64,000 bases of DNA from Geomonas paludis (GTDB taxonomy: Bacteria; Desulfobacterota; Desulfuromonadia; Geobacterales; Geobacteraceae), in assembly GCF_014193585.1 (NCBI RefSeq), contig NZ_BLXY01000011.1:62001-126000 (forward strand), written 5' to 3'. Below are positions 9,781 through 57,798 of the stretch, piece after piece. The translations under genes and the position numbers were made by a program. Position 1 is the first letter of the stretch. Each line of letters begins with the position of its first letter. The notes under the pieces were generated by a model. It searched no databases. It saw only the letters and a list, made by a program, of their open reading frames with translations, and had not been told where the DNA came from.

Positions 9781-9895
9781 AACCGTTAGCCACGGAGGAC
9801 ACGGAGAAATTCTGAGAGAGGCAAAAGGCTTTAGGTTTTAGACAAATTCTTTGGTTTTCTCAGAAGTTCTCAGATTTTCTCCGTGGCTAATGGTT
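9781..9895. repeat. Long inverted repeat before nifEN
   Basis: AACCGTTAGCCACGGAG (9781-9797) pairs with CTCCGTGGCTAATGGTT (9879-9895), with one G-U pair; further in, GAGAAATTCTGAGA pairs with TCTCAGATTTTCTC. The GGACACGGAG core also appears at 37137-37146 and, altered, near 20697. It looks like another dispersed spacer family and fills the nifK-nifEN gap. Confidence 0.65.
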
Positions 9896-9918
9896 TTAGC
9901 CCCAGAAAGGAGGCTCCA

Positions 9919-31726: not shown

Positions 31727-31825
31727 CGTCCCCGCCCCCGGAGGGGGAGGGGACAGGGAGGGGGCTGCAAGTCAGCAGTTGCTTGGTACGTCCCCCCTCC
31801 CAACCTCCCCCCTCCGGGGGGAGGA
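31727..31825. repeat. G/C-run inverted repeat overlapping the transferase gene end
   Basis: CCCCGCCCCCGGAGGGGGAG on the left and CCCCCCTCCGGGGGGAGG on the right are palindromes flanking a non-repeated centre. It resembles the nifD-nifK spacer element. Bases 31772-31825 are also the last 18 codons of the phosphopantetheinyl transferase, whose tail (SSPRRGEVGRGDVPSNC) is thus repeat-derived. Confidence 0.6.
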
Positions 31826-32503
31826 GTTCACTGCCAAAGCCGCGCAATAACCGGCGGGGACCGGCAGGTCTGCGAGACGCCAGCGGTTGACCTCGGTCGG
31901 GTCGGCTCCGTGCCCCAGGAGGGCCGCAGGTTCACCCGGGCGCAAGGACACATCGAAGCCGGTGGAGGGTTGGGAAAAACCGCTGCCGGCCGCCTTCATA
32001 TAGGCTTCCTTCCTGGTCCAGCAACGGTAGAACGCTTCCAACTGCTGCCGCGGGTCCAGCCCGAACAACTCTTCCCGCTCCCGCACAGAAAAATAGCGCT
32101 CCGCCATGGGGCGAAACGCCAGGTCCTGCCGTACCTCTTCCAGATCGACGCCTATCTCCGCGCCGTAACACACCGCTACCAGCAACTGACCGCCGGCATG
32201 GGAAACGTTGAAGCGCAGCCCTTCGGCCACCTGTCCAGCGGCGAGATACGGCTTGCCGAACTGGCCTTCCGCAAAGACAAGCCGCCCGGGTTCCTCCACG
32301 ACAAGACCCGCCAGGATTTCCCGCAACAAACCCCGTCCCACCAGGAACTCTTCACGCTTGCCGCTGTCGAGCAGCCTTGCGCCGCGGCGCAGTTCGGCTT
32401 CGCTTAAATAGCCGATCAGCCGCGTTTTCTCCTGCTCCGGGCGCTGCAGCGGTTCGAGCCGGTACTGCGCACGTACCGCCTCCAGTCCGGCGACGGGAAT
32501 CAA
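31772..32503 (-). CDS. Sfp-type 4'-phosphopantetheinyl transferase
   Basis: It transfers phosphopantetheine from coenzyme A to the serine of carrier proteins; here the five ACPs of PfaA are the obvious substrates (PfaE role). The 243-residue product shows LRFNVSHAGGQLLVAVCYGAEIGVDLEE (first metal/CoA segment, shown in part as NVSHAGG and IGVDLE) and FYRCWTRKEAYMKAAGSG. The start is inferred as TTG at 32503, within TTGA overlapping the oleD stop, after GAGGCAGGGG; no ATG or GTG fits. The last 18 residues derive from a palindromic repeat. Confidence 0.88.
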   Translation of the reverse strand: MIPVAGLEAVRAQYRLEPLQRPEQEKTRLIGYLSEAELRRGARLLDSGKREEFLVGRGLLREILAGLVVEEPGRLVFAEGQFGKPYLAAGQVAEGLRFNVSHAGGQLLVAVCYGAEIGVDLEEVRQDLAFRPMAERYFSVREREELFGLDPRQQLEAFYRCWTRKEAYMKAAGSGFSQPSTGFDVSLRPGEPAALLGHGADPTEVNRWRLADLPVPAGYCAALAVNSSPRRGEVGRGDVPSNC

Positions 32504-33492
32504 GCCCCTGCCTCGAACGACGCCCGCAGCAGCTGCAACCCTTCTTGCGTCGAGATGCGCGGCGTATAGCCGAGATCCCTGCGCGCGGCGGAGATGTCGA
32601 ACCAGTGGGAGGTGGCGAGCTCCTTCGCAACGAAGCGGGTCATGGGAGGTTCGCCGGGAAGCCTCAGCGTCTTCCAGGCCAGCTCGCAGGCGATGCCGGC
32701 GGCATAGGCCACTCCGGCGGGGATGGTGCGGGTAACCGGCGGGACGCCTGCGGCATCGAGGATAGCGTTGACCATGTCCCAAAGGGGAATCGGCTCGCTG
32801 TTGGAGATAAAGTACGCCTTCCCCGCCAGCGGGGCGTCGACTGCGAGGCGGTCCGCCGCGTTCAGGTGCGCCTCGGCGGCGTTTTCCACGTAGACGGTAT
32901 CGACGAGGCAGGTGCGGCTGCCGATGCGCCTCAAGGCCCCGGCGCGCCCCTTGGCGACGATGCGCGGCACCAGGTGGTTGTCGTTAGGTCCCCAGATCAG
33001 GTGCGGCCGCAAGGAGACGGTGGAGAGGGTGCGCGAGTTGGCGGCGAGCACGGCCTTTTCGGCTAGCGCCTTGGTGTGCGGGTAGGGGGCATGGAAATGG
33101 GCGGGGTAGGAGAGCGACTCGTCGCCACCCTCCACGTCGGAGCCGTCGAATACCACGCTCGGCGAGCCGGTGTAGACCAGGCGCCTGATGCCGAGGATGC
33201 GGCAGGCGGCGATCACGTTCTCGGTGCCGACGACGTTGGCCAGGTAATACTCCTGGAAATCGCCCCAGATGCCGGCCTTGGCTGCCACGTGGAAGACGAT
33301 GTCGCACCCCTTGGCCGCTTCGACGACGGCGTTCAGGTCGGAAAGGTCGCCGCGACGCTGCTCGACACCGAGCGCGGCAAGCTCCGGGTAGTCGCCACGC
33401 GAGAAACTGACCACCTCGTCGCCGCGGGCGCGCAGCTGTCTCACGAGGGCCGAGCCGAGAAAACCGCCCCCTCCGGTGACTAGCGCGCGCAT
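32500..33492 (-). CDS. oleD: 2-alkyl-3-oxoalkanoate reductase OleD
   Basis: OleD reduces the beta-keto acid made by OleA to a beta-hydroxy acid with NADPH. The 330-residue product is a short-chain extended dehydrogenase with the nucleotide motif TGGGGFLG (residues 6-13) and the catalytic YPHTK (Tyr/Lys) near 146-150. The HVAAKAGIWGDFQEYY and VSLRPHLIWGPNDNHL segments are typical of OleD and related 3-beta-HSD-like proteins. Its start overlaps the end of oleC by 13 bases and its stop overlaps the transferase start, so the run is tightly coupled. Confidence 0.9.
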   Translation of the reverse strand: MRALVTGGGGFLGSALVRQLRARGDEVVSFSRGDYPELAALGVEQRRGDLSDLNAVVEAAKGCDIVFHVAAKAGIWGDFQEYYLANVVGTENVIAACRILGIRRLVYTGSPSVVFDGSDVEGGDESLSYPAHFHAPYPHTKALAEKAVLAANSRTLSTVSLRPHLIWGPNDNHLVPRIVAKGRAGALRRIGSRTCLVDTVYVENAAEAHLNAADRLAVDAPLAGKAYFISNSEPIPLWDMVNAILDAAGVPPVTRTIPAGVAYAAGIACELAWKTLRLPGEPPMTRFVAKELATSHWFDISAARRDLGYTPRISTQEGLQLLRASFEAGA

Positions 33493-35129
33493 TTCAAACT
33501 CTCTGCAGCCCAGACCGCCAGCTTTTCACGGAAGATCTTGGCGTTGTGCCGGATGTCCACCGGGAAGGCGGGATGGAACAGGATGGTCTCGATGGACCTG
33601 GTGTGAATATGCTCTTCAGCCAGCGTTTTCAGCTCCTTGCGGATCTGCTCCTGGTCGACCTTGACGTCCTTCTCCAACTCGATGCAGATCACCGGCGTGA
33701 GTGCCCCCGGCTCGCCGACGCCCACGAGGGCGCTGCGGAACACGGCGGGATGGGTGTTGAAGACGGCCTCGCAGGGGATGGTGTAGAGCGGACCCGCCTC
33801 GGTCTCGACGCGATGGGCCTTGCGGCCGCAGAACCAGACACGTCCTTCTTCGTCCATACCGCCGAGGTCGCCCATGCGGTGGAAAAAGGAGCCCGTTGCC
33901 GGGTCGATGATCTTGGAGAGGTGGTCGGATTCCGGGCGGTTGTAGTAACCGCGGGTCACCTGCTCTCCCTGCACCACGATCTCGCCGATCTTGCCGGTCG
34001 GGACCCGCAGCATGTCATCCCAGCCGTAGATGGGGTTGTCGGTGATCTGGATGATCTCCAGGCGGATGCCTTCGACCGGACGGCCGACGCAGACCCCGCC
34101 GCCGGCGTCGGTAATCTTGCGGGTTTCCTCAAGGATCTCGGTGCTGCCGATGGAGCAGACCGGGAGCGCCTCGGTGGCGCCGTAGGGGGTGAAGACCTGC
34201 ACGCCGGGGTTCAACAGGCTGGTGAAGCGCTCCAACACGGAGGCCGGAACCGGCGCACCGGCCGAGATGGCGCGACGCAGGGTCGGCAGTTTCACGCCGT
34301 GCTCGACGCCGTAGCGGCCCACCCGGTTGATGAGCGCAGGGGAACCGAACATCGTGGTCACACCGTACTCGTTGATCGGCCCCACGATCTTTTTGGGATC
34401 TACCGAGCCGGGACGGGTGAAGTCCATCTCTGGAATCACCGCGGTCATGCCGAGCGCCGGGGCGAACAGGGCGAAGAGCGGAAAGGTGGGGAGATCGATC
34501 TCGCCCGGTTCGATGCCGTACACCTCTTTGAGCGCCTGCACCTGCGCGGAGAAGTTGCCGTGGCTGTAGATGGCGCCCTTGGGGATGCCGGTGCTGCCGC
34601 TGGTGAAGAGAATGGCGGCTACATCGTCCTTTTGTGTCGGGGCGGGCGTGAACGGGGCGTCGTCCTGCTGCTCCGCGATGATCTTGGCCAGCGTGGTCCC
34701 TTCCCAGAACAGGCGCGGCCCGACGGTAACGCAGGTGCGGATGGTTTCCTTGCCCCAACCGAAGAGCTTGCGGGCGATGTGCGCCTTGGGAATGCCAATG
34801 AACGCGTGCGGCTCCGCCTCGGAGAAGCACTGCTTCAGGTTCTTGATGCCCAGCCCCGGGTCGATGAGCACCGGCACCGCGCCAACCTTGAAGAGGGCGA
34901 AGGTGAGGGCGAAGAACTCCGGGCTCGGCGTCACCATGAGCACGGTGCGCACGCCGCTGCGTATGCCGTTGGCGATCAGGCCGCGCGCGATCTTGTCGCT
35001 CAGACCGTTCAGTTCGGAGAAGGTGAGGCTGCGCTTCCCCTTGGGGAAGATGATCGCCCTGGTGTCCGGCTGGCGCCGGGCCATCTCCGGCAGGTGCGCG
35101 GCAATGTTGACGAATTCGGTTTCGGCCAT
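33480..35129 (-). CDS. oleC: Olefin beta-lactone synthetase OleC
   Basis: OleC is an AMP-forming ligase-fold enzyme that closes the OleD product into a beta-lactone using ATP. The 549-residue product carries the adenylate-enzyme core motifs LFTSGSTGIPKGAIYSHGN (about 175-193, A3), YGATEALPV (about 318-326, A5) and GRKAHRVETEAG (A8 region). The gene order and the SLTFSELNGLSDKIARGL N-terminus distinguish it from ordinary acyl-CoA ligases by context; enzymatic identity is by family. It starts three bases after the oleB stop and overlaps oleD. Confidence 0.9.
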   Translation of the reverse strand: MAETEFVNIAAHLPEMARRQPDTRAIIFPKGKRSLTFSELNGLSDKIARGLIANGIRSGVRTVLMVTPSPEFFALTFALFKVGAVPVLIDPGLGIKNLKQCFSEAEPHAFIGIPKAHIARKLFGWGKETIRTCVTVGPRLFWEGTTLAKIIAEQQDDAPFTPAPTQKDDVAAILFTSGSTGIPKGAIYSHGNFSAQVQALKEVYGIEPGEIDLPTFPLFALFAPALGMTAVIPEMDFTRPGSVDPKKIVGPINEYGVTTMFGSPALINRVGRYGVEHGVKLPTLRRAISAGAPVPASVLERFTSLLNPGVQVFTPYGATEALPVCSIGSTEILEETRKITDAGGGVCVGRPVEGIRLEIIQITDNPIYGWDDMLRVPTGKIGEIVVQGEQVTRGYYNRPESDHLSKIIDPATGSFFHRMGDLGGMDEEGRVWFCGRKAHRVETEAGPLYTIPCEAVFNTHPAVFRSALVGVGEPGALTPVICIELEKDVKVDQEQIRKELKTLAEEHIHTRSIETILFHPAFPVDIRHNAKIFREKLAVWAAESLKCAR

Positions 35130-35132
35130 CGG

Positions 35133-36035
35133 TCAGGCAGTCTCCCGGGTCTCGGTCTGCTGCATAAATTGCACGATCATCGGCACCACTTCCTCTTTCA
35201 TGTCCTCGAGGATGTAATGCCCGGCGTCGGGGTAGCTCTTCACCTGCGCATTGGGGAAGCGGCGCTGCCACTCGGCCAGGAAGGTGGTGTCGAACACGAA
35301 GTCGAGCTCGCCCCAGAAGATGGCCATGGGGAGTTCGCGGAAGCGATCCAGCCCGTTGGCGATCTCGCTCACCAGGTCGTAGCCGCGGTCGCCGGGGGCA
35401 AGCGGAATGTCCTGCACGAAGCGCAGCGTGGCGATCCGGTTCTGCCACGAGTCATAGGGGGCGCGGTAGGCCTGCATCAGTTCCGGCGACATCGGGTTTT
35501 TCTTGCAGCCGACGATGGAAGCGCCGACGCTGAAGGCATTGAAACCGCGTACCAGCAGGGTGCCCAGCATGGTATCGCGGCAGATCTTCAGCCCCAGCGG
35601 GAAGGTCTTCTCCTTGGGGAGATGGAACGCCGCGGTGTTGAGGACCACGATGCGGCCGATCCGTTCCGGGTGGCGGCTCGCGTACCCCATGCCGATCATT
35701 CCGCCCCAGTCGTGCACCACCAGGGTGATCTTCCCCTGCAGATCGAGGGAGTCGATCAGGCGCTCCAGGTCGTCGATGCGGCGCGAGAGGGTATAGTCGT
35801 AGCGGTCGTCGCCGGGCTTGTCGGAGAAACCGCAGCCGATGTGATCCGGCACGATGCAGCGGTAGTTGTCGCGCAGCGCCAGCACGAGGTTCCGGTAATA
35901 GAAGGACCAGGACGGGTTGCCGTGCACCATGACCACCGGCGCGCCGGTCCCTTCGTCCAGGTAGTGGTAGGCGAGGCCGTCGAGGTCGAGGGTGCGGCCG
36001 GTGAAGGGGTAGTATTTTTTCACTTCGTCTCTCAC
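35133..36035 (-). CDS. oleB: Beta-lactone decarboxylase OleB
   Basis: OleB opens the beta-lactone and releases carbon dioxide to give the internal cis-olefin. The 300-residue product is a haloalkane-dehalogenase-like alpha/beta hydrolase with VMVHGNPSWSFYYRNL near 36-51 (oxyanion region), the nucleophile Asp in VVHDWGGMIGMGYA (about 110), and the His in PDAGHYILED (about 278). The dehalogenase-like HDWGG without a nucleophile Ser is as expected. Its ATG overlaps the oleA stop as ATGA. It is separate from oleC, unlike some fused versions. Confidence 0.9.
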   Translation of the reverse strand: MRDEVKKYYPFTGRTLDLDGLAYHYLDEGTGAPVVMVHGNPSWSFYYRNLVLALRDNYRCIVPDHIGCGFSDKPGDDRYDYTLSRRIDDLERLIDSLDLQGKITLVVHDWGGMIGMGYASRHPERIGRIVVLNTAAFHLPKEKTFPLGLKICRDTMLGTLLVRGFNAFSVGASIVGCKKNPMSPELMQAYRAPYDSWQNRIATLRFVQDIPLAPGDRGYDLVSEIANGLDRFRELPMAIFWGELDFVFDTTFLAEWQRRFPNAQVKSYPDAGHYILEDMKEEVVPMIVQFMQQTETRETA

Positions 36036-37075
36036 CAGTCCACTCCCAGCATGAGGCAGTTAAGGCCGCTTCCGATGCCCAAGAGGGCGACACGGTCGCC
36101 GGCGGAAAGGACTTCCCGCTCGTCGGCCAGTGCGGCGGTCAGCGGCAGCGACACGGTTCCCATGTTGCCCAGGAACTCGTAGCTGGTGAAGTCCTTGTGC
36201 AGCGAGATGCCGAGCGTTTTGAGGATGGCGCTCTGGTGCGCGCTCCCCACCTGGTGGCAGATGACGCGATCCACGTCGGTCTCCCGCCAGCCCACCTCCG
36301 GCAGGAACTCGTCCCAGGTGCGGCGTCCCAGTTCCACGCCGTAGTTCATGACGCTGACCGCATCGGTGCTCATCGACTGTTCGTACCCACCCCTGCCGTC
36401 CGGGATCATGCCCCAGAGGCAGAGCCCGTGGTGTTCGGGGGCCGCCTGGGCGATGCCGCCGCGCAGCCTCCTGCGGCCAGACTTGGAGAAGGAGCCGTCG
36501 GTGAGGAGCACCGCGACCGCGCCCGAGCCGCCGGTCAGCGTGGCCAGCGAGCTGGCGAAGTTCTCCATGCTGCGGTCTTCCAGCATCTTGGCGATCATGA
36601 CGTCGTTGATATCGCGTGCGCTCTCGCAGGAGACCACCAGGCCCGCCCGGATCTGCCCCAGTTCGATGCGGTTGGCGACCTCCAGGATGCCGTTCAAGAC
36701 GCCCAGGCAGGCGTTGGAGAGGTCGTAGATGGCGGCGTTGCCCGAGACGCCCAGGCCGGCGGCGACGCGGCAGGCCGTGGCCGGCTCGAAGCGCTCGCGG
36801 CAGACGCCGGTGTAGAGCAGGGCGCCGATCTCGTTGGGGGAGATGCCTGCCGCTGCCAGTGCCTTTTTACCGGCCGCGATGGCGCCCTTGGAGAGCTGGA
36901 AGCCGGGCTCCCACCAGCGCCGTTCGCGGATCCCGGTAAGGGCCTGCAGCTGTCCCGGGGTGAAGTGCAGCGTCTTGTAAAGCGGCTCCAGCCGCGCCTC
37001 GAGCTCGTCCGAGGTGACCACCACCGGAGCAAGCTCGTAACCGAAAGATTCGATATATACCTTGGAATACTTCAT
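36032..37075 (-). CDS. oleA: Head-to-head acyl condensing enzyme OleA
   Basis: OleA is a thiolase-fold enzyme that joins two acyl thioesters by a non-decarboxylative Claisen condensation. The 347-residue product resembles FabH but has the OleA features: catalytic Cys-123 in LSNACLGVLNG, Glu-97 in VCRERFEPAT (the base supplied to the partner subunit), the His of CHQVGSAHQ and the Asn of FLGNMGTVS. The N-terminal YESFGYELAPVVV-like segment (IESFGYELAPVVVTS) is also typical. It opens the oleABCD run; the 335-base gap before it separates it from pfaC and may hold its own promoter. Confidence 0.92.
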   Translation of the reverse strand: MKYSKVYIESFGYELAPVVVTSDELEARLEPLYKTLHFTPGQLQALTGIRERRWWEPGFQLSKGAIAAGKKALAAAGISPNEIGALLYTGVCRERFEPATACRVAAGLGVSGNAAIYDLSNACLGVLNGILEVANRIELGQIRAGLVVSCESARDINDVMIAKMLEDRSMENFASSLATLTGGSGAVAVLLTDGSFSKSGRRRLRGGIAQAAPEHHGLCLWGMIPDGRGGYEQSMSTDAVSVMNYGVELGRRTWDEFLPEVGWRETDVDRVICHQVGSAHQSAILKTLGISLHKDFTSYEFLGNMGTVSLPLTAALADEREVLSAGDRVALLGIGSGLNCLMLGVDW

Positions 37076-37226
37076 CTAGCACCTTAAGAAACTGAAGCTG
37101 AAAAACTTAAAAGCGGAAAGCATGACCACAGAGGACACGGAGGTCCACAAAGGGCACAGAGAAAACATTATGTACAAGCAGCCTCATCACCCCTTCAACC
37201 TTGCGAGGGAGTGTGGTCCAGCCGCC

Positions 37227-37350
37227 TCATCACCCCCTCGCCCTTTGGGAGAGGGTGCCCGAAGGGCGGGTGAGGGCGACGCCACGGAGTGAGAGGGTTG
37301 CCAATTGCAGCGCCCTCACCCCAACCCTCTCCCGGAGGGAGAGGGAGCGC
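37227..37350. repeat. CCCTCTCCC paired palindromic repeat
   Basis: CCCTCGCCCTTTGGGAGAGG and CCCTCTCCCGGAGGGAGAGG flank a GGGTGAGGGC/GCCCTCACCC pair. It is the same family as the copies at 6453, 13157 and 26654. Confidence 0.65.
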
Positions 37351-37362
37351 GAACCCGAGATA

Positions 37363-37397
37363 ACGTAGAACGTAGAACGTAGAACGTAGAACGTAGA
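37363..37397. repeat. ACGTAGA tandem repeat, five copies
   Basis: The heptamer ACGTAGA is repeated five times without change and then breaks off at ACGG, 13 bases from the pfaC stop codon. Perfect short tandem repeats of this kind can change copy number by slippage. Confidence 0.85.
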
Positions 37398-37410
37398 ACG
37401 GCCGTTAGGT

Positions 37411-44610: not shown

Positions 44611-44612
44611 GC

Positions 44613-47600
44613 CTATGCCGCCCCCACAACCGTTACGGTCCTAAGCTTGTTGCGCTGGAAGGCCTGTTTCAGGGACGGGTCGATGACGCACTCGTACCCT
44701 TCCAGGCGCGCCACCAGTTTGCCGCTGCTGCGGTCGAGGAACTCCATGTCGGCGCTGGCGCCGTGCTGGCTCTCGGAGGTGACGCGGATGACGACCTGCA
44801 CGCCCTCGCGCGGGAACGACTCCTGGAACTGGCGGTAGCGCCCGGCGAAGCAGGGGAGGGAACCGGCGCCGAAACGCTCGAAGCTCCAGAGGATCATCAT
44901 CTGGAAGGCGCTGTCGAGGACCAGCGGGTCGGTGAGCCAGGAACTCCTCAGGGGGCGCCTGATCCACTTGGCAGGCGCCGGGGCGCCCTTGACCGAGGCG
45001 GCGATTCCCTTGGCGGAGCAGCCGTCAACCTGTTCGATGCCGTGCAGGTCCGGCCCGTGGAACAGGCGCTCGTTGTTGTAGATCACGCCATCGTGCGGGG
45101 CGTACGGAGTGCTCGGGATCTCCTTGATGGAGCGGATCCCCTCCGGGTGCTTGGTGGCCAGCACGATCTCGGCACGGGCGTGCAGGATGGTCTTGCCGTT
45201 GACGCCCGGGCTGGACAGTTCAACCGGAACCAGCCAGAACGACTCGCGCTTTTCGGCACGGCCCGCCATCACGTTGAGGGTGAACGGGGTGTTGTCCTCG
45301 AAGACCACGCCCTTGCAGATGCGCAGGTCGTTGAAACCGTGGAAGCGGAAACCGGGGTTGCCGTGCAGCGCGCCGTGGGCGAGCCACTCGACGATGACCG
45401 CCATGGGGAGCACCGCCTTGCCGTCCAGCACGTGGGAGCGCAGGAAGGGGTATTCCGGCACGGTCAAAGTGAGCGAGAAGGCCTCGGACAGGCTCTGCGG
45501 TTTGCCCGCTACGGGCGCGGCGGCGCTCACCTGTTCTGGGAGCTGGGCGATGGCGACGATCTCGACTGGTGCGTCGGCAGCGGAGATTTCACGTGCCAGG
45601 AACTCGCCACCATCGGTGAGGCCGATGACGCCGATCCCTTCCGCAGCGAACACCTTCTTCAGTGCCGGGGTGACCATGCCGCCGTCCCACGGACCCCAGT
45701 TGATGCTGACGCAGCGGCAGCCGGTGCGGCGGCGCGCCTCGGCCTGGGCAGTCTTATTGAGCACCTCGTTGGCGACCGCGTAGTCGACTTGGCCCACGCG
45801 GCCGAAACGGCCGGTGGAGGAGGAGAAAAGGGCCACGAACTTGAGGTCGTCGTTCCGGGTTGCGTGCAGCAGGGCGCGCAGACCATGCACCTTGGTGCTG
45901 TAGACCTGTTCGAACTGCTCCGGGGTCTTGTCCACGATGAGGCGGTCGGCCAACACGCCGGCGCCGTGTACGACGCCGCGGATCGGGCCGTGGGCGCGAC
46001 GGACCTCGCCGAGCAGCAGTTCCATCGCGCTCTGGTCGCGGATATCGACCGAGCGGTAGATGGCCTCGGCGCCGGTGGCGGCGATGGAGGTCAGGGTCTC
46101 GCGCAGTTCGCGCCCGGCCACCACGGAGCGGTAGCGCTCCTCGATCTCGCGGGGATGCAGCTTACCGGTGGCGTTCTGCATGATGGCGCGCTTGATCTCG
46201 GCCTCATCGCTGACGCCGGTCAACCAGGCAGGCTCCTCCTGCGGCTCGGGGCTGCGCCCCAGGAGCACCAGGAAGGGATGGTATTCCTTGGCAAGCGCCA
46301 AGGCGGAAACCGCGGTAACCCCGCGTCCGCCGCCGGTGATGACCACGACGTCACCTTTTTCCAGGACCGGATCGGCCGGGGCCGGTGCAGCGGGGAGTAC
46401 GACGCTCTGCAGGCCGAAGCGGCCTTCCGGAGTCAGCCCGACCTCGACCGGGCCGCGACGCAGCATCTCGATGGCCACGGCGCCTGCGGCGGCTGCGGGA
46501 TGAGCGAACTCGCCCAGGTCGATGGCCTTGCAGGCCACTTCAGGCCACTCGAAAGCGGCGGTCTTGGTGAGACCGGCCAAGGCGCCGGAAAGAGGATCCT
46601 TCAAGGTCTTGCCGGCGCCGAAACCGAAGGCGCCATCCAGGCGGGAAACGGTGACGCAAACCGCGCCCTCGGAGCGCCCGGACTCACCCAGGGCTGCCGC
46701 CGCGTTCTTGAGCAGGCGGAAGGCGTTTTCGAGGAAGAGGTCGTCAGTGCCGGCAACCGGCGCGCAGATGACCAGGCCGGAAAGCTTCCCGGCCGGTGCA
46801 ATCTGCTGTGCCTGGGCCGCGTTGACCTTGCGCACCGAGCAGCCGTGTTCGAGCAGGATGCCGCACAATTCCGCGGCAAATGCGGAACCGTCGTCGGTTA
46901 CCCAGATCTCGCCGTCGTTGGCGAGGGTGATGGCATCGTCGTCGCTATCGCCGAGCAGTACCGGAGTCATGGAGCTGCGCTCGATGGGATGCGCAGGGCT
47001 TTCCACTGGCGCGGCAGCGGCAGGTACTGCTGCTACATTGGCAGGGGCAGCGACCTCGGCAGCAGCCGGAGCTGCCGAAACTGCGGGAGCAGCAGGTTGT
47101 GCCGGGCCCGCGAGGAAATTGGCGATGTCACCCAGGGTACGCAGGGTGCCCAGGTGCTCCGGGCCGATCGCCGGGCAGGCAGGGAGGCGCTCCTGCAGGG
47201 CGGAAAGGATCTCGACACGCTTGATGGAGTCGATACCGAGGTCGGAATCCATGCCCATGGTCAGTTCCAGCATCTCGGACGGGTAACCGGTCTTGTCGCT
47301 GACAACTTCGAGCAGGGCTTGGCAGACGGCGGCATGATCGACTGCAGCGGCTGCAGGGGAAGCAACCGGTGCAGCGGGTGCTGCCGGGGCGGCAACAGCG
47401 GCAGCGGCCGGGGCAACGGCAGAACCGGCGCCGAGGAAACCGGCGATGTCACCCAGAGTGCGCAGGGTGCCCAAGTGCTCGGGGCCGATGGTCGGCGAAC
47501 CGGGGAGACGCTCCTGCAGCGTGGACAGGATCTCCACGCGCTTGATGGAGTCGATGCCCAGGTCGGAGTCCATGCCCATGGTGAGTTCGAGCATTTCGGT

Positions 47601-50600
47601 CGGGTAACCGGTTTTCTCGCTCACCACATCCAACAGTGTGGCGGTCACATCGGCGGCAGCGATGGTGGACACCGTGGACATGGTGGACGCGGTGGACGCA
47701 ATGGAAGGTGCGGCGCCTGCGGCGAGATGCCCGGCGATGTCGCCCAGGGTACGCAGGGTGCCGAGGTGCTCCGGACCGATGGCGGGAGAGCCGGGGAGGC
47801 GCTCCTGCAGGGTGGACAGGATCTCGACGCGCTTGATGGAGTCGATGCCGAGGTCGGAGTCCATGCCCATTTCAAGCTCGAGCATTTCCACAGGGTAGCC
47901 GGTCTTCTCGCTTACTACTGCCAGTAGTGTCGCGGTCACGTCGGCAGATGCAACGGTGGACGCCGTGGACATGGTGGACGCGGTGGACACGGTGGAAGGT
48001 GCAACTCCGGCGGCGAGGTGGCCGGCGATGTCGCCCAGGGTGCGCAGGGTGCCCAGGTGCTCGGGGCCGATGGCCGGGGAGCCCGGCAGGCGCTCCTGCA
48101 GCGTGGACAGGATCTCGACGCGCTTGATCGAGTCGATGCCGAGGTCGGAGTCCATGCCCATTTCAAGTTCGAGCATTTCCACAGGGTAACCGGTCTTCTC
48201 GCTGACCACGGCGAGCAGCGTTTCAGTCACGTTGGAAGGGGGACAGGCACCTGCGGAGCCAGTCCCCGTGCTGGTGACTGCGCTGGCGGCGGCCGGTGCT
48301 GCGGCAGCTACAGACGCGGCGCCTGCGGCGAGGTGACCGGCGATGTCGCCCAGGGTGCGCAGGGTACCGAGGTGCTCGGGCCCGATAACGGGGGAACCCG
48401 GCAGACGCTCCTGCAAGGTGGAGAGGATCTCTACGCGCTTGATGGAGTCGATACCGAGGTCGGAGTCCATGCCCATGTCGAGCTCAAGCATTTCAATGGG
48501 ATAGCCGGTTTTCTCGGAGATGACGGCCAGAAGGGTTTCAGTCACGCGGGAAGGGGGACTGGCACCTGCGGAGCCAGTCCCCGCAGCGGCGGGCGCCACG
48601 GGCGCGGCAACGACCGGCGCCGGAGTCGCCTTGGCAACAGCCGGAGCAGCCACGGGGGCGGCGGCCGGAGCCGGGGCTGCTGCGACAGGGGCCACGTAGG
48701 CAGGGGCCTGCGGGGCGGCGACGGGTGCGGCCTGTGCAACGGCGGTCGGAGCCGCGTAGGTAACCGGAGCGACCGGTGCCCCCATGATCAGCCGCTGTTG
48801 CTGCTCGAGGAGCGTCTGGAAGGTTTTGGCTGCGGCTTCCTGCCCTTCGAGGAAGCGGCGATGCAGCAGCGCGGTATCTTCCTGCATCTTCTGCAGAACT
48901 GCCATGCCTTCACGCGCCAGGCGCAGGGATTCGTTCAGGTTCGCGTGGGAGGCGGGCTGGGCAATGGTCTGCGGCTGGTGCGCCGGCGCCGCAGGTGCAG
49001 CAGCTTGGTAGCTCGCCTGCTGCGGAGTGACGGCGGCAGCCTGCACCGGGGCGGCAGGAGCAGCCACAGGGGCGACCGGTGCCGCGGCGACTACAGCCGG
49101 TTTCGGCTGAACGGGCGGTTTTTTCGGCTTTGCTTTCACGTAGTTGGCGCCACAGAGCGGAATGGTCAACGCGGGCTTTTTGCCGGTCGGTGCCGGGGCG
49201 GGAGTGTGTCCCTCGTCCCAGAGCGCCAGGTTGACGCCATAGCCGAGCACGGCGAGCTGCGCCAGGGTCCGGGCCAGGTCGGCGACACCGGCGCGCTTGC
49301 CGGAGGAAGCGTCCAGAGCAAAGGCGAGGTGGGGGCGGTTACCGAGGATGGCCTGCACGAGGCCGGTCAGGCGGTTGCCCGGGCCGACTTCGACGAAGTT
49401 GGTAATGCCTGCCGCGTACATCGCCTCGATCTCGGCCACGAACTCGACCGGCTTGGCGAGCTGGGCAGCCAGTTGCGCCTTGGCGGCAGCTGCATCGGCC
49501 GGGTAGATGGCGGCGGTGGTGTTTGCGTAGGCCGGGATCTTCGCCTGCGGCATGTCGATTTTTTCCAGGGCGGCGAGGAACGGCTTGGCGGCGTCGGCGA
49601 CCAGCGCGCTATGGAAGGCGGCGGCAACCGGCAGTTCCTTGCAGGTGAGACCGAGCCCCTTGAAGACGGTGACGGCGCGCTTGATCTCGGCGCTGGCGCC
49701 GGAAAGAACGGCCTGAGTAGGGGCGTTCTTGTTGGCGATGACCAGGTCGAGCTTCTCGGAGGCGACCACTTCGGCGATTTTCTCCAGCGGCGCGGAGACG
49801 GCCAACATGCTCCCCTTGTCGCCGGAGCCGGCGCCCATCAGCTTGCCGCGCAGGCGGGACAGTTCGTGCAGCGCGTTCTCGTCGAGCCTGCCGGCGGCGC
49901 ACAGTGCGGTCAGTTCGCCGTAGCTGTGACCGGCAACAGCATCGGCGTCTACGCCGAAGTCACGCAGCACGCGCAGCGCACCGAGGCTGGTGGCGCCGAT
50001 GGCGGGCTGAGCGGCCTGGGTGGCGCGCAGTTCCTCCTCCTGCCTGGCGCGGGTCGCGTCATCATAGGCGGAAGGGGGGTAGATCAGGTCGGAAAGCATC
50101 TTGCCGTCGGCGCTGACGAATCCTTCGTTGGCGGCAGCAACGGCGTCCAGCACCTGGGGGAAGCTGCAGGCGAGGTCGTTGAGCATGCCGGTGTACTGCG
50201 AGCCCTGGCCGGGGAACAGCATGCCGAGCTTGCCGGGTGCGCCGCCGCAGGCGAAGTAGGCGCCGTCGGGAGTCTGCCAGGCGGATTTCGCGTTCTTGTC
50301 CAGCATGGCGCGGGCGTTCTTCACCAGCGAGGCGAGGTTGGTCTTGCTGCGCTCCACGACCAGCGCGAGGCGGCAGGGGGCTTTGGCATCAAAGGAAGTG
50401 CGGGAGGCCAGGGCCAAGTCGCGCACGACTCCCCAGGCGGCATCGGTGGGGACCGAATCGAGTTTGGCCGCGACTGCGGCGCCGTCGGCACCCGAGAAGG
50501 CCAGGATCTGGGTGTTGCCGTCCCAATCCACGCCCTGTTTCTTCGGCTGGTACTCCTCGAGTACGACGTGGAAGTTGGAGCCGCCGAAACCGAAGGCGCT

Positions 50601-51956
50601 CACCGCGGCGCGGCGCGGCGCATCGGAACGGGGGAACCAGGGACGTTTGCCGGCCGGGAGGTAGAAGGGGGAGCCGTCGCCGACCACGACGCTCTGCGGG
50701 GTCTGCACCTTGATAGTCGGCGGGATGACCTTGTGGTGCAGGGCGAGCGCCGCCTTGATCAGGCCCGCGGAACCTGCCGCGGCCTTGGTGTGGCCGATCT
50801 GGGACTTCACCGAGCCCAGCGCGCACCACGGGTTCTCGGCCTTGCCGTACACCTCGCGCAGCGCGCTCACTTCGACGGCGTCGCCGACCTTGGTGCCGGT
50901 GCCGTGGGCTTCCAGCATGCCGATGGTTTCCGGGGTGACGCCCGCGTTTTTGTACGCGTTCAGCAGCGCCTTCTTCTGGCCGGCGGAGCTGGGGGCGTAG
51001 ATGGCGTCACCTTTGCCGTCGCTGGAAGAGCCGACGCCGCGGATCACCGCGTAGATCTTGTCCCCGTCGCGCTCTGCGTCCGCGAGACGCTTCAGCACCA
51101 CGATGCCGAGACCTTCGCCCAGGATGGTGCCGTCGGCGGAAACGTCGAACGGCTTGGCGTTGCCGGTGGGGGAGAGCGCCGGGGTCTTGCTGAAGCACAT
51201 GTACATGAAGATGTCGTTGAAGGTGTCGATGCCGCCGCTGACGACGATATCCGACTTACCCGACATGAGTTCCATGGAGGCCAGGTGCAGCGCGCTGAAG
51301 GAACTGGCGCAGGCGGCGTCGACGACGCAGTTGGTGCCGCCCAGGTCGTACTGTTTGCTGATCCTGCCTGCCACCACGTTGCCCAAAAGACCAGGGAACG
51401 AGTTTTCCTGCCACGGCACGTAGGAGTCGGAGATGCGCTCGACGACATCCTTGGCGGTTTCCTCGTCGACACCGGCGTCCTTGAGGGCGGAGCGCCAGAC
51501 CGGGTGGCCGAGACGCGCCCCCAGCGGGATTACCAGCTCCAGCGTGCCAGTGACGCCCAGGATAACGGAGACGTTGCTCTTGTCGAAGGCACGCTCAGGG
51601 CCGTAACCGGCGTCCTTGAGTGCCTGCCCGGCGGCCACCAGCCCCAGCAGCTGGGAAGTGTCGATCGCCTCCAGCACGTTGGGCGGGATGTTGAATTCCA
51701 TCGGGTTGAAATCGACCGGCGAGAGGAAGCCGCCGCGGCGACCGTAGGTGCGGTCCGGGCTCTTCTGGTCCTCGTCGTAATAGGCATCCACCGGCCAGTG
51801 GGTGGAGGGGATTTCCGTGATGGCGTCGACCCCGTCCTTGATGTTGGCCCAGTAGGCGTTTTTATCCGCGGCCTGCGGGAAGAGGCAACCGATGCCGATG
51901 ATGGCAAGCTGAGTTCCGTTGCTGGAGACGGCAGGTTTCAGATCATCAGTTTTCAA
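44613..51956 (-). CDS. pfaA: Polyunsaturated lipid synthase subunit PfaA-like (KS-AT-5xACP-KR-DH)
   Basis: The 2447-residue product has a ketosynthase (about 12-470; Cys in DAACASSFSALH near 215), a malonyl acyltransferase (about 580-890; GHSYGE) and an Ala/Pro-rich linker. Five acyl-carrier domains follow, each with LGIDSIKRVEIL (about 1140-1610), then a ketoreductase (about 1860-2140; TGGGRGVTA, then SSSTGRFGRVGQVDY) and a PKS-type dehydratase-like domain (about 2150-2440). The order matches myxobacterial Pfa2 rather than Shewanella PfaA, which lacks the last domain. The start is inferred as TTG at 51956, overlapping the pfaD stop as TTGA, eight bases after AAGGAG; no ATG or GTG fits. Confidence 0.92.
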   Translation of the reverse strand: MKTDDLKPAVSSNGTQLAIIGIGCLFPQAADKNAYWANIKDGVDAITEIPSTHWPVDAYYDEDQKSPDRTYGRRGGFLSPVDFNPMEFNIPPNVLEAIDTSQLLGLVAAGQALKDAGYGPERAFDKSNVSVILGVTGTLELVIPLGARLGHPVWRSALKDAGVDEETAKDVVERISDSYVPWQENSFPGLLGNVVAGRISKQYDLGGTNCVVDAACASSFSALHLASMELMSGKSDIVVSGGIDTFNDIFMYMCFSKTPALSPTGNAKPFDVSADGTILGEGLGIVVLKRLADAERDGDKIYAVIRGVGSSSDGKGDAIYAPSSAGQKKALLNAYKNAGVTPETIGMLEAHGTGTKVGDAVEVSALREVYGKAENPWCALGSVKSQIGHTKAAAGSAGLIKAALALHHKVIPPTIKVQTPQSVVVGDGSPFYLPAGKRPWFPRSDAPRRAAVSAFGFGGSNFHVVLEEYQPKKQGVDWDGNTQILAFSGADGAAVAAKLDSVPTDAAWGVVRDLALASRTSFDAKAPCRLALVVERSKTNLASLVKNARAMLDKNAKSAWQTPDGAYFACGGAPGKLGMLFPGQGSQYTGMLNDLACSFPQVLDAVAAANEGFVSADGKMLSDLIYPPSAYDDATRARQEEELRATQAAQPAIGATSLGALRVLRDFGVDADAVAGHSYGELTALCAAGRLDENALHELSRLRGKLMGAGSGDKGSMLAVSAPLEKIAEVVASEKLDLVIANKNAPTQAVLSGASAEIKRAVTVFKGLGLTCKELPVAAAFHSALVADAAKPFLAALEKIDMPQAKIPAYANTTAAIYPADAAAAKAQLAAQLAKPVEFVAEIEAMYAAGITNFVEVGPGNRLTGLVQAILGNRPHLAFALDASSGKRAGVADLARTLAQLAVLGYGVNLALWDEGHTPAPAPTGKKPALTIPLCGANYVKAKPKKPPVQPKPAVVAAAPVAPVAAPAAPVQAAAVTPQQASYQAAAPAAPAHQPQTIAQPASHANLNESLRLAREGMAVLQKMQEDTALLHRRFLEGQEAAAKTFQTLLEQQQRLIMGAPVAPVTYAAPTAVAQAAPVAAPQAPAYVAPVAAAPAPAAAPVAAPAVAKATPAPVVAAPVAPAAAGTGSAGASPPSRVTETLLAVISEKTGYPIEMLELDMGMDSDLGIDSIKRVEILSTLQERLPGSPVIGPEHLGTLRTLGDIAGHLAAGAASVAAAAPAAASAVTSTGTGSAGACPPSNVTETLLAVVSEKTGYPVEMLELEMGMDSDLGIDSIKRVEILSTLQERLPGSPAIGPEHLGTLRTLGDIAGHLAAGVAPSTVSTASTMSTASTVASADVTATLLAVVSEKTGYPVEMLELEMGMDSDLGIDSIKRVEILSTLQERLPGSPAIGPEHLGTLRTLGDIAGHLAAGAAPSIASTASTMSTVSTIAAADVTATLLDVVSEKTGYPTEMLELTMGMDSDLGIDSIKRVEILSTLQERLPGSPTIGPEHLGTLRTLGDIAGFLGAGSAVAPAAAAVAAPAAPAAPVASPAAAAVDHAAVCQALLEVVSDKTGYPSEMLELTMGMDSDLGIDSIKRVEILSALQERLPACPAIGPEHLGTLRTLGDIANFLAGPAQPAAPAVSAAPAAAEVAAPANVAAVPAAAAPVESPAHPIERSSMTPVLLGDSDDDAITLANDGEIWVTDDGSAFAAELCGILLEHGCSVRKVNAAQAQQIAPAGKLSGLVICAPVAGTDDLFLENAFRLLKNAAAALGESGRSEGAVCVTVSRLDGAFGFGAGKTLKDPLSGALAGLTKTAAFEWPEVACKAIDLGEFAHPAAAAGAVAIEMLRRGPVEVGLTPEGRFGLQSVVLPAAPAPADPVLEKGDVVVITGGGRGVTAVSALALAKEYHPFLVLLGRSPEPQEEPAWLTGVSDEAEIKRAIMQNATGKLHPREIEERYRSVVAGRELRETLTSIAATGAEAIYRSVDIRDQSAMELLLGEVRRAHGPIRGVVHGAGVLADRLIVDKTPEQFEQVYSTKVHGLRALLHATRNDDLKFVALFSSSTGRFGRVGQVDYAVANEVLNKTAQAEARRRTGCRCVSINWGPWDGGMVTPALKKVFAAEGIGVIGLTDGGEFLAREISAADAPVEIVAIAQLPEQVSAAAPVAGKPQSLSEAFSLTLTVPEYPFLRSHVLDGKAVLPMAVIVEWLAHGALHGNPGFRFHGFNDLRICKGVVFEDNTPFTLNVMAGRAEKRESFWLVPVELSSPGVNGKTILHARAEIVLATKHPEGIRSIKEIPSTPYAPHDGVIYNNERLFHGPDLHGIEQVDGCSAKGIAASVKGAPAPAKWIRRPLRSSWLTDPLVLDSAFQMMILWSFERFGAGSLPCFAGRYRQFQESFPREGVQVVIRVTSESQHGASADMEFLDRSSGKLVARLEGYECVIDPSLKQAFQRNKLRTVTVVGAA
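47100..48560. repeat. Five tandem ACP-coding repeats in pfaA
   Basis: Five near-identical ACP segments recur at spacings of about 317, 290, 291 and 322 bases, marked by the codons for LGIDSIKRVEIL near 48437, 48120, 47830, 47539 and 47217. Linkers between the middle copies are Ser/Thr-rich (STASTMST) and built of 9-base GTGGACGCC-like units. The first linker is longer by the length of an inserted palindromic repeat. Confidence 0.9.
48239..48267. repeat. GGGGACAGG repeat inside pfaA (ACP1-ACP2 linker)
   Basis: A 29-base palindromic copy is translated in frame as GTGSAGACPPS between the first and second carrier domains. Confidence 0.8.
48554..48582. repeat. GGGGACTGG repeat inside pfaA (before ACP1)
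   Basis: A 29-base palindromic copy is translated in frame as GTGSAGASPPS just before the first carrier domain, almost identical to the copy at 48239-48267. Confidence 0.8.
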
Positions 51957-53566
51957 CAAAGGTACTCCTTGATTTGAGCGATTTCGAGGGGTTGCGGTGC
52001 GATCTCTTCCAGGCGCAGCTCGATGCCCTGGCTGCGCAGGAAGTTGGCGCGGGTCAGGTGCGCCGCACCGTGCAGGATATTGAGCGCGACGGTCACGATC
52101 TTGCGCTCGGCGGCTGCCTCCAGGAAGGAGCCGGCGGCCCATTCGTTGAAGGCGCCCATGGCGGGGCCGCACCATACCTGGTAATCCATCTTGCGGTTTT
52201 CGACGCCGTCTTTGGCCCAGTGTGCCCCCATGCCGAGGTACCAACGGAAGACCAGCGCCATCTTGTGTTTCGGGTCGCGCTCGCTGCGCTCCACCTGGGA
52301 CGGGTCGCGCTTGAGGAAGTAGTCCCGGGTGCCGCGCCAGATCTCTTCCAGCGGTGCCAGGAACATGGTCTTTTCCAGCTTTTCCCGCTCGGCGGCGGGA
52401 ATCTCGTCCATGCTGCCGTAGGCGCGGTACAGGTCGTACAGCTTGGCGGCGCGCATCGGGAACATGGTGCCGCGCTTCAGGACCTGAACGGTGACACCCA
52501 TCTCGAACATGTCGGCGGCGGGGGCCATGGTGACATCGGCCTGGCGGGTGCCGGCCAGCATGCCGCGCACGGTGTCGGAGGTGCCGGACTCGACGCAGGC
52601 CTGGTTTACCGACCCGGTCATGACGTAGGCGGCGCCCATGGCAAAGGCGGCTGCGGCCGAAGCCGGCGTGGAGACGCCTCCGCCGAGGCCGACGCGCAGT
52701 TTGCAGTCGTAGCCGTACTGGCGCTCCAGCCGTGCGGCCAGGGAGTTGATGGTCGGGAACAGGGCCATGGCCGGGCGGTTGTCGGTGTGCCCGCCGGAAT
52801 CGGCCTCGGCGGTGACGTCCTGCGCCAGCGGCACATGGGCGGCCAGTTCGGCCTGTTCGGCGGTGATGGAGCCGTTCTCGACCAGGGCGCGCAGCAGCTT
52901 CTCAGGGGCCGGCGCGAAGAACTTGGCCGCCAACTCCTCGCGGGAAACCTTGGCGATGATCCGGTTGGGCGTGACGATGCTGCCGTCGGCGGCGCGCTTG
53001 ATGCCGTGCAGCCGGTAGCGCACCAGGGGGAGGGTCAGCGCCAGGAACGCCGAGGCCTCGATGATACGCACACCCTTGCGGATATACAGCTCGGCCAGCT
53101 CCTTTTCCAGCTCCGGCTCGTGCGGGGAGTGAATCAGGTTGAAGCCGTAGGGGATGTCGCCCAGGGACTGCTTGAGGCGGTCGGCGGTATCCGAGACCGT
53201 GGAGATGGGCAGGCCGGCGGCGCCGAAGAAACCCAGCATCCCCGCGCGCCCGAGCTCCTCGGCCATGGCTGCGGAACTGATCCCCTTGGCCATGGAGCCG
53301 CCCAGGTACGGGTAGCGGATGCCGATCTCGCGGCAGAATGAGGGGTCACCCAGATTTTCCGGAAGGCAGGCCGGGGCATAGCCGACGCAGGAAGCAACGC
53401 TGCCGGCGCCGCCCAACTGAGGGACCAGCGCGCCGTCGCGCTGTACCAGGTACAGGGGATGACGCACGACGCGGAGCGCGTCTCTAAGACTCATAACGGC
53501 AGGACCGGAACTCTCGGGTTTGGCAGAGCAAGCGCCAGGCTCACCCTGAAGTGTGAAAAGATCCAA
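51953..53566 (-). CDS. pfaD: Enoyl reductase PfaD of the polyunsaturated lipid synthase
   Basis: PfaD is the stand-alone FMN-dependent trans-acting enoyl reductase. The 537-residue product has a TIM-barrel with LGGSMAKGISSAAM near 87-100 and RVGLGGGVSTPASAAAAFAMGAAYVMTGS (in part: GLGGGVSTP and GAAYVMTGSVNQ) near 290-320, and a C-terminal helical part ending PLEIAQIKEYLC. The start is inferred as TTG at 53566, eight bases after ACAGGAG; an ATG at 53494 (MSLRDAL) is the alternative. It heads the pfaD-pfaA-pfaC run, the same order as myxobacterial pfa1-pfa2-pfa3. Confidence 0.9.
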   Translation of the reverse strand: MDLFTLQGEPGACSAKPESSGPAVMSLRDALRVVRHPLYLVQRDGALVPQLGGAGSVASCVGYAPACLPENLGDPSFCREIGIRYPYLGGSMAKGISSAAMAEELGRAGMLGFFGAAGLPISTVSDTADRLKQSLGDIPYGFNLIHSPHEPELEKELAELYIRKGVRIIEASAFLALTLPLVRYRLHGIKRAADGSIVTPNRIIAKVSREELAAKFFAPAPEKLLRALVENGSITAEQAELAAHVPLAQDVTAEADSGGHTDNRPAMALFPTINSLAARLERQYGYDCKLRVGLGGGVSTPASAAAAFAMGAAYVMTGSVNQACVESGTSDTVRGMLAGTRQADVTMAPAADMFEMGVTVQVLKRGTMFPMRAAKLYDLYRAYGSMDEIPAAEREKLEKTMFLAPLEEIWRGTRDYFLKRDPSQVERSERDPKHKMALVFRWYLGMGAHWAKDGVENRKMDYQVWCGPAMGAFNEWAAGSFLEAAAERKIVTVALNILHGAAHLTRANFLRSQGIELRLEEIAPQPLEIAQIKEYLC

Positions 53567-53820: not shown

Positions 53821-54474
53821 TCACGCTCCTCCCTTTTGTTTGATCGCTTTAACCACGTACGGGTAGACGGTCTCGGTGACGATGGCGTACCCCTTGGCGG
53901 TCGGGTGGACGCCGTCGGAGAGGTTGAGGCCCTCCTTGCCGGCGACCTTGTCCAGGAAGAACGGGATCAGGATCACCTTGCGCTCCTTGGCGACGCGGGG
54001 GTAGATGGCGGCGAACTTGCCGGTGTAGGCAGGGCCGAGGTTCCTCAGCATCCTCATGCCGGCCAGAACCACGACCACGCCTTTGGACTGCAGGGTGGAG
54101 ACGATCTTGTCGATGTTGCGGTAGGCGAGGTCGGGATCCTGGCCGCGCAGGCCGTCGTTGGCGCCGGTTTCCAGTATGACGATGTCCGGCTTGAGCTTCA
54201 TGACCCAGTCGACCCGGGCCAGGGCGCCGGTGCTGGTCTCGCCGCTGATGCCTGCGTTGATCACGGTCCACTGGTAGCCGGCCTGGTGCAGTTTGCGCTG
54301 CAACTGGGCGGGGTAGGCCTCGGACTCGCGGATGCCGTATCCGGCGGTGAGGCTGTCGCCGAAGGCGACGATGGTGCCGTGGCTCGCGGGTTTCGCTGCG
54401 CCCGCGGCCAGGGCCGGTCCGGCGCCAGTGACGGTGCAGAGAGCCAGGGTGAATATGGTGAAAAGGTTGCGCAT
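53821..54474 (-). CDS. tesA: TesA-like SGNH lipase/thioesterase
   Basis: The 217-residue exported protein has a signal peptide (LFTIFTLALCTVTGAGPALA). The SGNH hydrolase blocks follow: FGDSLTAGYG (Ser, about 37-46), the Gly block INAGISGETS, ETGANDGLRG (Asn block) and DGVHPTAKGYA (Asp/His). TesA acts as lysophospholipase, arylesterase and acyl-thioesterase in the periplasm. AAAGGAG eight bases upstream fixes the ATG at 54474; an in-frame ATG at 54585 lies in repeat DNA. It follows the ybbP-like gene on the same strand, a linkage also seen in Escherichia coli, where tesA borders ybbA. Confidence 0.9.
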   Translation of the reverse strand: MRNLFTIFTLALCTVTGAGPALAAGAAKPASHGTIVAFGDSLTAGYGIRESEAYPAQLQRKLHQAGYQWTVINAGISGETSTGALARVDWVMKLKPDIVILETGANDGLRGQDPDLAYRNIDKIVSTLQSKGVVVVLAGMRMLRNLGPAYTGKFAAIYPRVAKERKVILIPFFLDKVAGKEGLNLSDGVHPTAKGYAIVTETVYPYVVKAIKQKGGA

Positions 54475-54512
54475 TAGGTTCTCCTTTGCGTAAAGCAGGT
54501 GACGCCGCTTGA

Positions 54513-54541
54513 GGGGACTGGCTCCGCAGGTGCCTGTCCCC
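54513..54541. repeat. GGGGACTGG palindromic repeat, spacer copy
   Basis: A 29-base member of the GGGGAC family stands upstream of tesA, 39 bases before its start codon. Confidence 0.75.
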
Positions 54542-54586
54542 TTAGTCCGCATCGTTTGAACTGTGAAGCAGGTGCCGTAAACCAAA

Positions 54587-54616
54587 GGGGACAGGCACCT
54601 TTCGGAGCCAGTCCCC
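54587..54616. repeat. GGGGACAGG palindromic repeat, second spacer copy
   Basis: This member lies in opposite orientation 45 bases from the previous one and next to the end of the ybbP-like gene. The pair flanks a short unique segment, like a REP doublet, and could fold into one large hairpin. Confidence 0.75.
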
Positions 54617-54626
54617 GCCCACTTGC

Positions 54627-57117: not shown

Positions 57118-57125
<8 letters not shown>
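54627..57125 (-). CDS. ybbP: ABC transporter permease, YbbP/FtsX type
   Basis: The 832-residue permease has an N-terminal membrane helix (about 15-37), a large periplasmic domain, about four central helices (about 255-440), a second periplasmic region (about 480-690) and three to four C-terminal helices (about 705-815, including SFSIVAGVLIVVSSVFA). This is the duplicated FtsX/MacB layout of YbbP. It overlaps the ATPase gene by eight bases and precedes tesA. Transporters of this class move lipids or hydrophobic compounds out of the inner membrane rather than import; the substrate here is unknown. Confidence 0.88.

Positions 57126-57798
<673 letters not shown>

Follow-up and report, generated by a model that had tools for sequence, protein, structure and literature searches.

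We analyzed a 64,000-nucleotide stretch of the Geomonas paludis genome (the window; contig NZ_BLXY01000011.1, positions 62,001 to 126,000 of the forward strand) and found eight genes on its minus strand, running from 53566 to 31772 in the order pfaD, pfaA, pfaBC, oleA, oleB, oleC, oleD and a phosphopantetheinyl transferase gene (Table 1). With a probability of roughly 0.87, we read these genes from their sequences as a Type I pfa-ole cluster, in which a chain made by the Pfa synthase would be passed to OleA and then processed by OleD, OleC and OleB to a long polyene, most likely C31:9. The identity of the product made by this strain is inferred, and so is a hand-over of the chain straight from synthase to OleA.

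In the proposed route, the transferase would load the five carrier domains of PfaA, and PfaA, PfaBC and PfaD would assemble malonyl units, with no need for oxygen, into a polyunsaturated acyl chain. OleA would take a C16 polyene (16:4, as we infer for this strain) from the synthase and join two polyunsaturated chains head to head. The product of OleA would then be reduced by OleD and closed to a beta-lactone by OleC. The long polyene left once OleB has released CO2 would most likely be C31:9, the compound made by Geobacter bemidjiensis. The roles proposed for OleD, OleC and OleB in these later steps follow the known pathway, in which OleB is the beta-lactone decarboxylase, and the names of the family models.

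A 2016 review describes G. bemidjiensis as a producer of C31:9 in which pfaD, A, B and C, oleA, B, C and D and pfaE form a tandem array (PMC4882568), and a 2011 survey reports that it makes C31H46 and proposes that Type I synthases may supply olefin (ole) precursors (PMC3098273). The idea that the synthase supplies OleA in G. bemidjiensis is called speculative in print (PMC4882568; PMC3098273). The chain named as the polyene precursor of OleA is 16:4 (PMC6463001; PMC4882568). Further, a 2019 study found that OleA links both pathways and that Pfa together with OleA gave a 31:8 ketone in an Escherichia coli fadD mutant (PMC6463001). According to the preliminary description of this DNA, the synthase feeds OleA, in its view directly, and yields a long polyunsaturated hydrocarbon that may act on membranes. 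Supply of OleA by the synthase and a product of this class coincide with the published reading for G. bemidjiensis and agree with the ketone formed in E. coli and with the co-occurrence, near-overlap and OleA grouping described below; direct feeding and membrane activity are conjectural.

To establish how the two gene sets are distributed, we counted PfaD and OleA in 58 genomes (our own and 57 relatives; the true OleA set was taken at E below 1e-160). Both were present in 45 genomes and neither in 12; PfaD occurred alone in one genome (G053) and OleA alone in none. The preliminary description had suggested a survey of pfa-ole adjacency, and in 43 of the 45 genomes surveyed here, our own included, pfaBC immediately preceded oleA on the same strand. 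The gene order is thus kept in relatives, which argues that the arrangement is not due to chance. The same held for named loci, which included records of Planctomycetota, Elusimicrobiota, Sumerlaeota and Desulfobacterales: PfaBC-like coding sequence was found upstream of OleA on the same strand in 31 of 32. The lone exception, L050, had none in its 3.7 kb, and in five loci of the Desulfobacterales type (L051, L054, L057, L058 and L062) the upstream open reading frame (ORF) was shorter (1331-1561 aa). Plasmid-borne relatives were also considered and rejected: among 72,556 plasmid records, none matched OleA at E 1e-30, and 23 matched PfaD, all at less than 60% identity.

In the window, the four genes of the oleABCD pathway lie together. 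OleC and OleD were both matched in all 10 genomes with OleA among 14 searched (limits, E 1e-100 for OleC and E 1e-40 for OleD), and neither was matched in the four without OleA (G021, G029, G048 and G053). In G040, oleCD was located about 270 kb from oleA, and in G020, G042, G047, G049 and G055 it was on another contig, which in G020 and G047 may be a mere contig break; the oleC match of G047 contained one internal stop. We therefore rejected a loss of the ole back end where oleC and oleD were not beside oleB, because matches to both turned up at other places of the genome concerned; in several cases a contig break may be all that parts them from oleB.

Some ole loci contained additional genes. 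In G040, a type I restriction gene (HsdR), a YhcG-type nuclease gene and an HsdS subunit gene directly followed oleA (L082, 10006-15399). In G019, an 833-aa protein with InlB B-repeat-like domains was encoded between oleB and oleC (L072, 11044-13545). A protein of 239-249 aa without a Pfam match was encoded between oleB and oleC in L054 (12003-12752), L058 (12017-12736) and L062 (12329-13069), and OleD had no match in the stretches of these three Desulfobacterales-type loci; this protein may be part of a pathway variant.

The distance from the pfaBC stop to the oleA start differed within and around the genus. In 18 congeners the gap ranged from -4 to 398 bases and was at most 10 bases in two and longer in 16. 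In the rest of the order, where it was measurable in 24 of 26 genomes, the gap was at most 10 bases in 17, six of them with overlapping genes, and 23 to 141 bases in the other seven. Apparent PfaBC-OleA fusions in L051 and L055 (gaps of -1044 and -1050) were rejected, since the alignments ran through stop codons and the frames stop before oleA; both values were left out of every count. A synthase that supplies OleA would fit the co-occurrence of the two gene sets, the close joints of pfaBC with oleA in sister genera and the grouping of pfa-associated OleA. A correlation between OleA distances and PfaBC C-terminus distances points the same way (r 0.96, a value reached in none of 2000 permutations). 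It was computed for 50 loci out of 64, the other 14 (our own 4-kb stretch included) having been dropped for a missing or short PfaBC alignment; close kin are among these loci, and common ancestry contributes to the correlation alongside co-inheritance.

In a tree of 43 OleA rows, 36 formed one group (support 100/100) apart from seven rows without pfa, although the tree was midpoint-rooted, the tree tool warned of long branches meeting at the pfa/non-pfa split, and the pfa-associated OleA sequences were mostly gathered by similarity to the window OleA, which biases the tree toward grouping them. The group comprised all 31 pfa-adjacent rows, three with pfa elsewhere and two of unknown state. A first tree, rooted in the same way, had three further long-branched rows (L120, L121 and 3fk5) that the 43-row tree omits, and it recovered the same 36 at 100/99. 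In L127, pfaBC adjoins oleA.

An evenly drawn sample of the phylum (148 genomes, our own included) contained 10 genomes that matched the PfaBC C-terminus at E of 1e-60 or less and 16 that matched OleA at E of 1e-40 or less. OleA of at least 57% identity was found in seven genomes. Six of these also had PfaBC, on another contig in G127; the seventh, G134 (85% complete), had no PfaBC match in the 3 kb upstream of OleA. OleA of at most 48% identity was found in nine genomes, of which eight were without PfaBC and one (G092) had a distant PfaBC on another contig.

Alignment of OleA revealed that Q42, I156, G182, W221 and R320 were invariant in 67 of 67 group sequences, many of them close kin chosen largely by similarity to the query, and absent in nine of nine outside the group, which came from nine genomes of one phylum, one of them (G092) with a distant PfaBC match. 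Genomes are called without pfa here if they had no PfaBC C-terminus match at E 1e-60. Within the same sets, G90 and C102 were present in 65 of 67 and in none of the nine. These seven residues are a lead as candidate diagnostic residues of the pfa-associated OleA. We found no report of pfaBC-oleA overlaps or of such residues in the excerpts of open-licence literature, and the close joint and the residues are a modest addition to a known system. Tentatively, and at clearly less than even odds, we suggest that a dedicated OleA lineage takes the unfinished polyene straight from the PfaA carriers, is held to and often co-translated with the synthase, and bears Q42, I156, G182, W221 and R320 (with G90 and C102) as markers, so that the Pfa of this order would give hydrocarbon only and no fatty acid. 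If this is true, the marker residues would allow polyene products to be predicted from OleA sequence.

The assignments of the synthase proteins were as follows. PfaD scored 626 bits against TIGR02814 (cut-off 449) and PfaA 1940.6 bits against TIGR02813 (cut-off 1010). PfaA contained KS, malonyl transferase (MAT), five ACP and KR domains and a C-terminal polyketide-type dehydratase (DH) with HVLDGKAVLP; the five carrier domains share the motif LGIDSIKRVEIL. In PfaBC, a KS with DAACASS was followed by a second KS-like domain, a PfaB-like acyltransferase with the serine motif YSLGE and dehydratase domains. The second KS-like domain, seen by eye to be without the cysteine motif, is read as a putative chain-length factor (CLF). 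The FabA-like dehydratase region had two active-site-like motifs, CHFVDDRVMPG (found by pattern) and AHFYQDPVTPG (by eye). All these motifs are read as in known members of the families. The acyltransferase, a domain fused within PfaBC, did not reach the cut-off of the PfaB-type model TIGR02816 (106.2 bits; cut-off 144.3). The domain set is otherwise that of a polyunsaturated fatty acid (PUFA) synthase, with tandem ACP, KS, CLF (called by eye), MAT, KR, FabA-type DH and the PfaD enoyl reductase. Further, a pfaBC fusion stands beside pfaD and pfaA as in Type I pfa clusters (PMC3098273), and lineage and architecture agree in pointing to this type.

The preliminary description had listed pfaD, pfaA, pfaC, oleABCD and an Sfp-type transferase on one strand, and all were found where it had placed them; the gene that it called pfaC was present, but its domains identified it as a pfaBC fusion and not a plain pfaC. 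Gene starts were assigned by eye. The pfaD stop is overlapped by the TTG start of pfaA (TTGA), with AAGGAG upstream, and by coordinates oleA is overlapped by oleB and the end of oleC by oleD. The oleD TGA stop is overlapped by the TTG start of the transferase (TTGA). The transferase had been described as fused into the ole translation unit; an in-frame fusion with OleD was ruled out, because the transferase is a separate ORF with overlapping codons. The sole sizeable break in the cluster was the spacer between pfaBC and oleA.

OleA scored 500.7 bits against NF006720 (cut-off 285) and was the sole match above the cut-off in this genome. Close named relatives were those of Geomonas anaerohicana and G. 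azotofigens (99%), G. propionica (98%), G. diazotrophica (96%) and Citrifermentans bremense (92%), which places the window in Geomonas or a near neighbour. Cys123, His274 and Glu97 were present in all 76 aligned OleA sequences, and we take His274 and Glu97 to be catalytic. The cysteine, C123, is catalytic according to published work (PMC6463001). OleC exceeded the cut-off of a general fatty-acid CoA ligase model (795.7 vs 478) and was below both olefin-specific cut-offs (692.4 vs 850 for the olefin beta-lactone synthetase model, and 686.8 vs 900). The best match of OleD was the OleD model NF042422, below its cut-off (464.8 vs 580), and a second model gave 423.7 vs 580. Thus, neither protein reached an olefin-specific equivalog cut-off, though the matches spanned nearly the full length. 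The ACPS domain of the transferase (E 4.4e-16) was found in a longer ORF, 31772-32782.

Several results weigh against the reading of a synthase that supplies OleA. In two genomes of one genus (G042 and G049), oleA was not beside pfaBC. G053 had PfaD without OleA, OleC or OleD matches, on a contig that ends about 3.3 kb after PfaD. In the phylum sample, three of the 10 PfaBC genomes (G058, G097 and G132; one genus; 34-36% identity) had no OleA at E 1e-40. PfaBC-like synthases without OleA therefore exist outside the order, and the pfa-ole link is no general rule; these three genomes probably carry another type of synthase. Finally, the repeat-filled spacer of 335 bases could split pfa and ole into two transcripts.

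That pfa and ole are two separately transcribed operons, merely side by side in this genus, is a real possibility, though short of even odds. It draws on this spacer and on the long gaps of most congeners, up to 398 bases, and is opposed by the short or overlapping joints in 17 of the 24 genomes outside the genus. Further, no sigma-70-like promoter or terminator-like site was detected in the spacer by a simple scan, which did not cover other promoter types. A different alternative is that the synthase mainly makes free PUFA for membrane lipids and that OleA draws off a shorter intermediate. This is the situation in Shewanella, which produces both eicosapentaenoic acid (EPA) and C31:9 (PMC6463001). 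The domain types here are those of an EPA-type synthase, and a GDSL hydrolase gene, directly upstream of pfaD in the genus, could release free acids. The GDSL family includes the thioesterase TesA. We consider this alternative unlikely: of the 46 PfaD genomes among relatives, 45 also had OleA, and pfa thus seems to be of little use on its own in the order; of 20 genomes examined, 12 had the GDSL gene next to pfaD and eight lacked it at that place. No thioesterase or AGPAT family was among the family matches of the eight cluster proteins, to which the search for release enzymes was confined, and this fits a route ending at OleA.

It is very improbable that OleA condenses ordinary type II fatty acids, with another fate for the Pfa product and no metabolic significance in the adjacency of the genes. 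Xanthomonas OleA does condense ordinary acyl chains (PMC7064751), but G. bemidjiensis makes C31:9 (PMC3098273; PMC4882568), and pfa-associated OleA was grouped apart from the OleA of sampled genomes without pfa. The Xanthomonas-type oleABCD systems have the same four-gene pathway, and residues 3-347 of the window OleA align nearly end to end with their OleA structures 3fk5/3row; the Xanthomonas-type OleA was a distinct lineage in the first tree. These systems are not known to include pfa.

Comparison with known systems leaves the cluster little weight as a discovery, as the same arrangement was published in 2016 for a C31:9-producing relative. The Type I pfa-ole cluster of G. bemidjiensis (Citrifermentans) Bem has the same gene order and the reported product C31:9 (PMC4882568); we found no difference of substance beyond the species, and spacer length and repeats vary between congeners. 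The gene order, product class, hypothesis and transferase position are already published knowledge, and the doubt about novelty voiced in the preliminary description was justified (PMC4882568). That description had also placed pfa and ole apart in Shewanella; separation is not general, since the two operons lie next to each other in Photobacterium profundum SS9 (PMC6463001) and G. bemidjiensis carries the genes in tandem. Shewanella and Photobacterium share the enzyme types and product class with our cluster, and OleA links the pathways there in vivo (PMC6463001), but pfaB and pfaC are separate (Type A; PMC3098273) and fused here, and EPA is also made there. In the 2019 study, such a hydrocarbon was not found in P. 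profundum although it has an ole operon, and homologues of pfaT show linkage to pfa or ole, Shewanella and Psychromonas being the exceptions (PMC6463001). Myxobacterial Type L clusters share a fused pfaBC-type gene with the window (PMC3098273) and, in contrast to it, carry an AGPAT domain (PMC4882568), none being among the domain matches of our cluster. The function of the polyene hydrocarbon in strict anaerobes is described as still open (PMC4882568). The possible use of the present results lies in the near all-or-none occurrence of pfa and ole in relatives, the location of oleA near the pfaBC end and the OleA residues, which are testable for substrate choice.

The spacer before oleA contained several repeats. 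The perfect palindrome of a repetitive extragenic palindrome (REP)-like element, CCCTCTCCC-N3-GGGAGAGGG, had 341 copies in the 5.1-Mb genome and its reversed control none; in the window it occurred at 6455, 13162, 13226, 26657, 26747 and 37325. Many of these palindromes were paired, some 70-90 bases apart, among the matches listed. A second repeat, of the CTCTGTG type, formed the stretch before oleA in 13 of 14 aligned rows, our own included, and was absent from L036. The spacers of seven of 22 other loci examined had REP-like motifs, and other material therefore contributes to spacers too. Since a close pfaBC-oleA joint is common around the genus, the wide spacer here looks derived, apparently by repeat growth.

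Table 1. Features of the pfa-ole cluster and its surroundings (positions in the window)
Feature	Position	Strand	Basis
GDSL hydrolase, FtsX-type permease and ABC ATPase, upstream of pfaD	53821-57798	-	family matches
pfaD, enoyl reductase, 537 aa, TTG start	51953..53566	-	TIGR02814; start read by eye
pfaA, 2447 aa, TTG start	44613..51956	-	TIGR02813, Pfam domains, motifs; start read by eye
pfaBC fusion, 2399 aa	37411..44610	-	domain matches and motifs
Repeat-filled spacer between pfaBC and oleA, 335 bases	37076..37410	.	sequence and repeat scans
7-base tandem repeat, 5.6 copies, TTCTACG on minus strand	37362..37400	.	repeat scan
REP-like element: perfect palindrome core 37325-37345, related imperfect arm from 37247	37247..37345	.	
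Copy of second interspersed repeat, CCTCYGTGNNCTCYGTGG	37126..37143	-	strict pattern at 15 places in genome
oleA, head-to-head condensing thiolase, 347 aa, Cys123 / His274 / Glu97	36032..37075	-	NF006720
oleB, haloalkane-dehalogenase-like hydrolase, 300 aa	35133..36035	-	family matches
oleC, AMP-binding beta-lactone synthetase (predicted), 549 aa	33480..35129	-	family matches
oleD, 2-alkyl-3-oxoalkanoate reductase (predicted), 330 aa	32500..33492	-	NF042422
Sfp-type phosphopantetheinyl transferase (pfaE role), 243 aa, TTG start	31772..32503	-	ACPS domain, WTRKEAY motif

The three genes upstream of pfaD resemble, as we presume, the tesA-ybbA-ybbP group. All three were present in 10 of 10 congeners sampled; among 10 other genomes, two had the GDSL gene only and eight had none of the three (within about 5 kb, E 1e-5). 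We therefore rejected the GDSL and ABC/FtsX genes as a fixed part of the system, and they look like neighbours of this lineage. Rfam gave no match in the window at the gathering score. Elsewhere in the window, a 930-aa ORF (9883-12675, plus strand) has two stretches of the nitrogenase component 1 family and looks like a fused NifE-NifN; homocitrate-synthase-like and radical SAM proteins are encoded near it (4005-5147 and 16736-17593, plus strand), and this is probably a nitrogenase cofactor region. A tandem array of units of about 21 bases, with higher orders of 62 and 83 bases, overlaps ORFs at 14936-15332.

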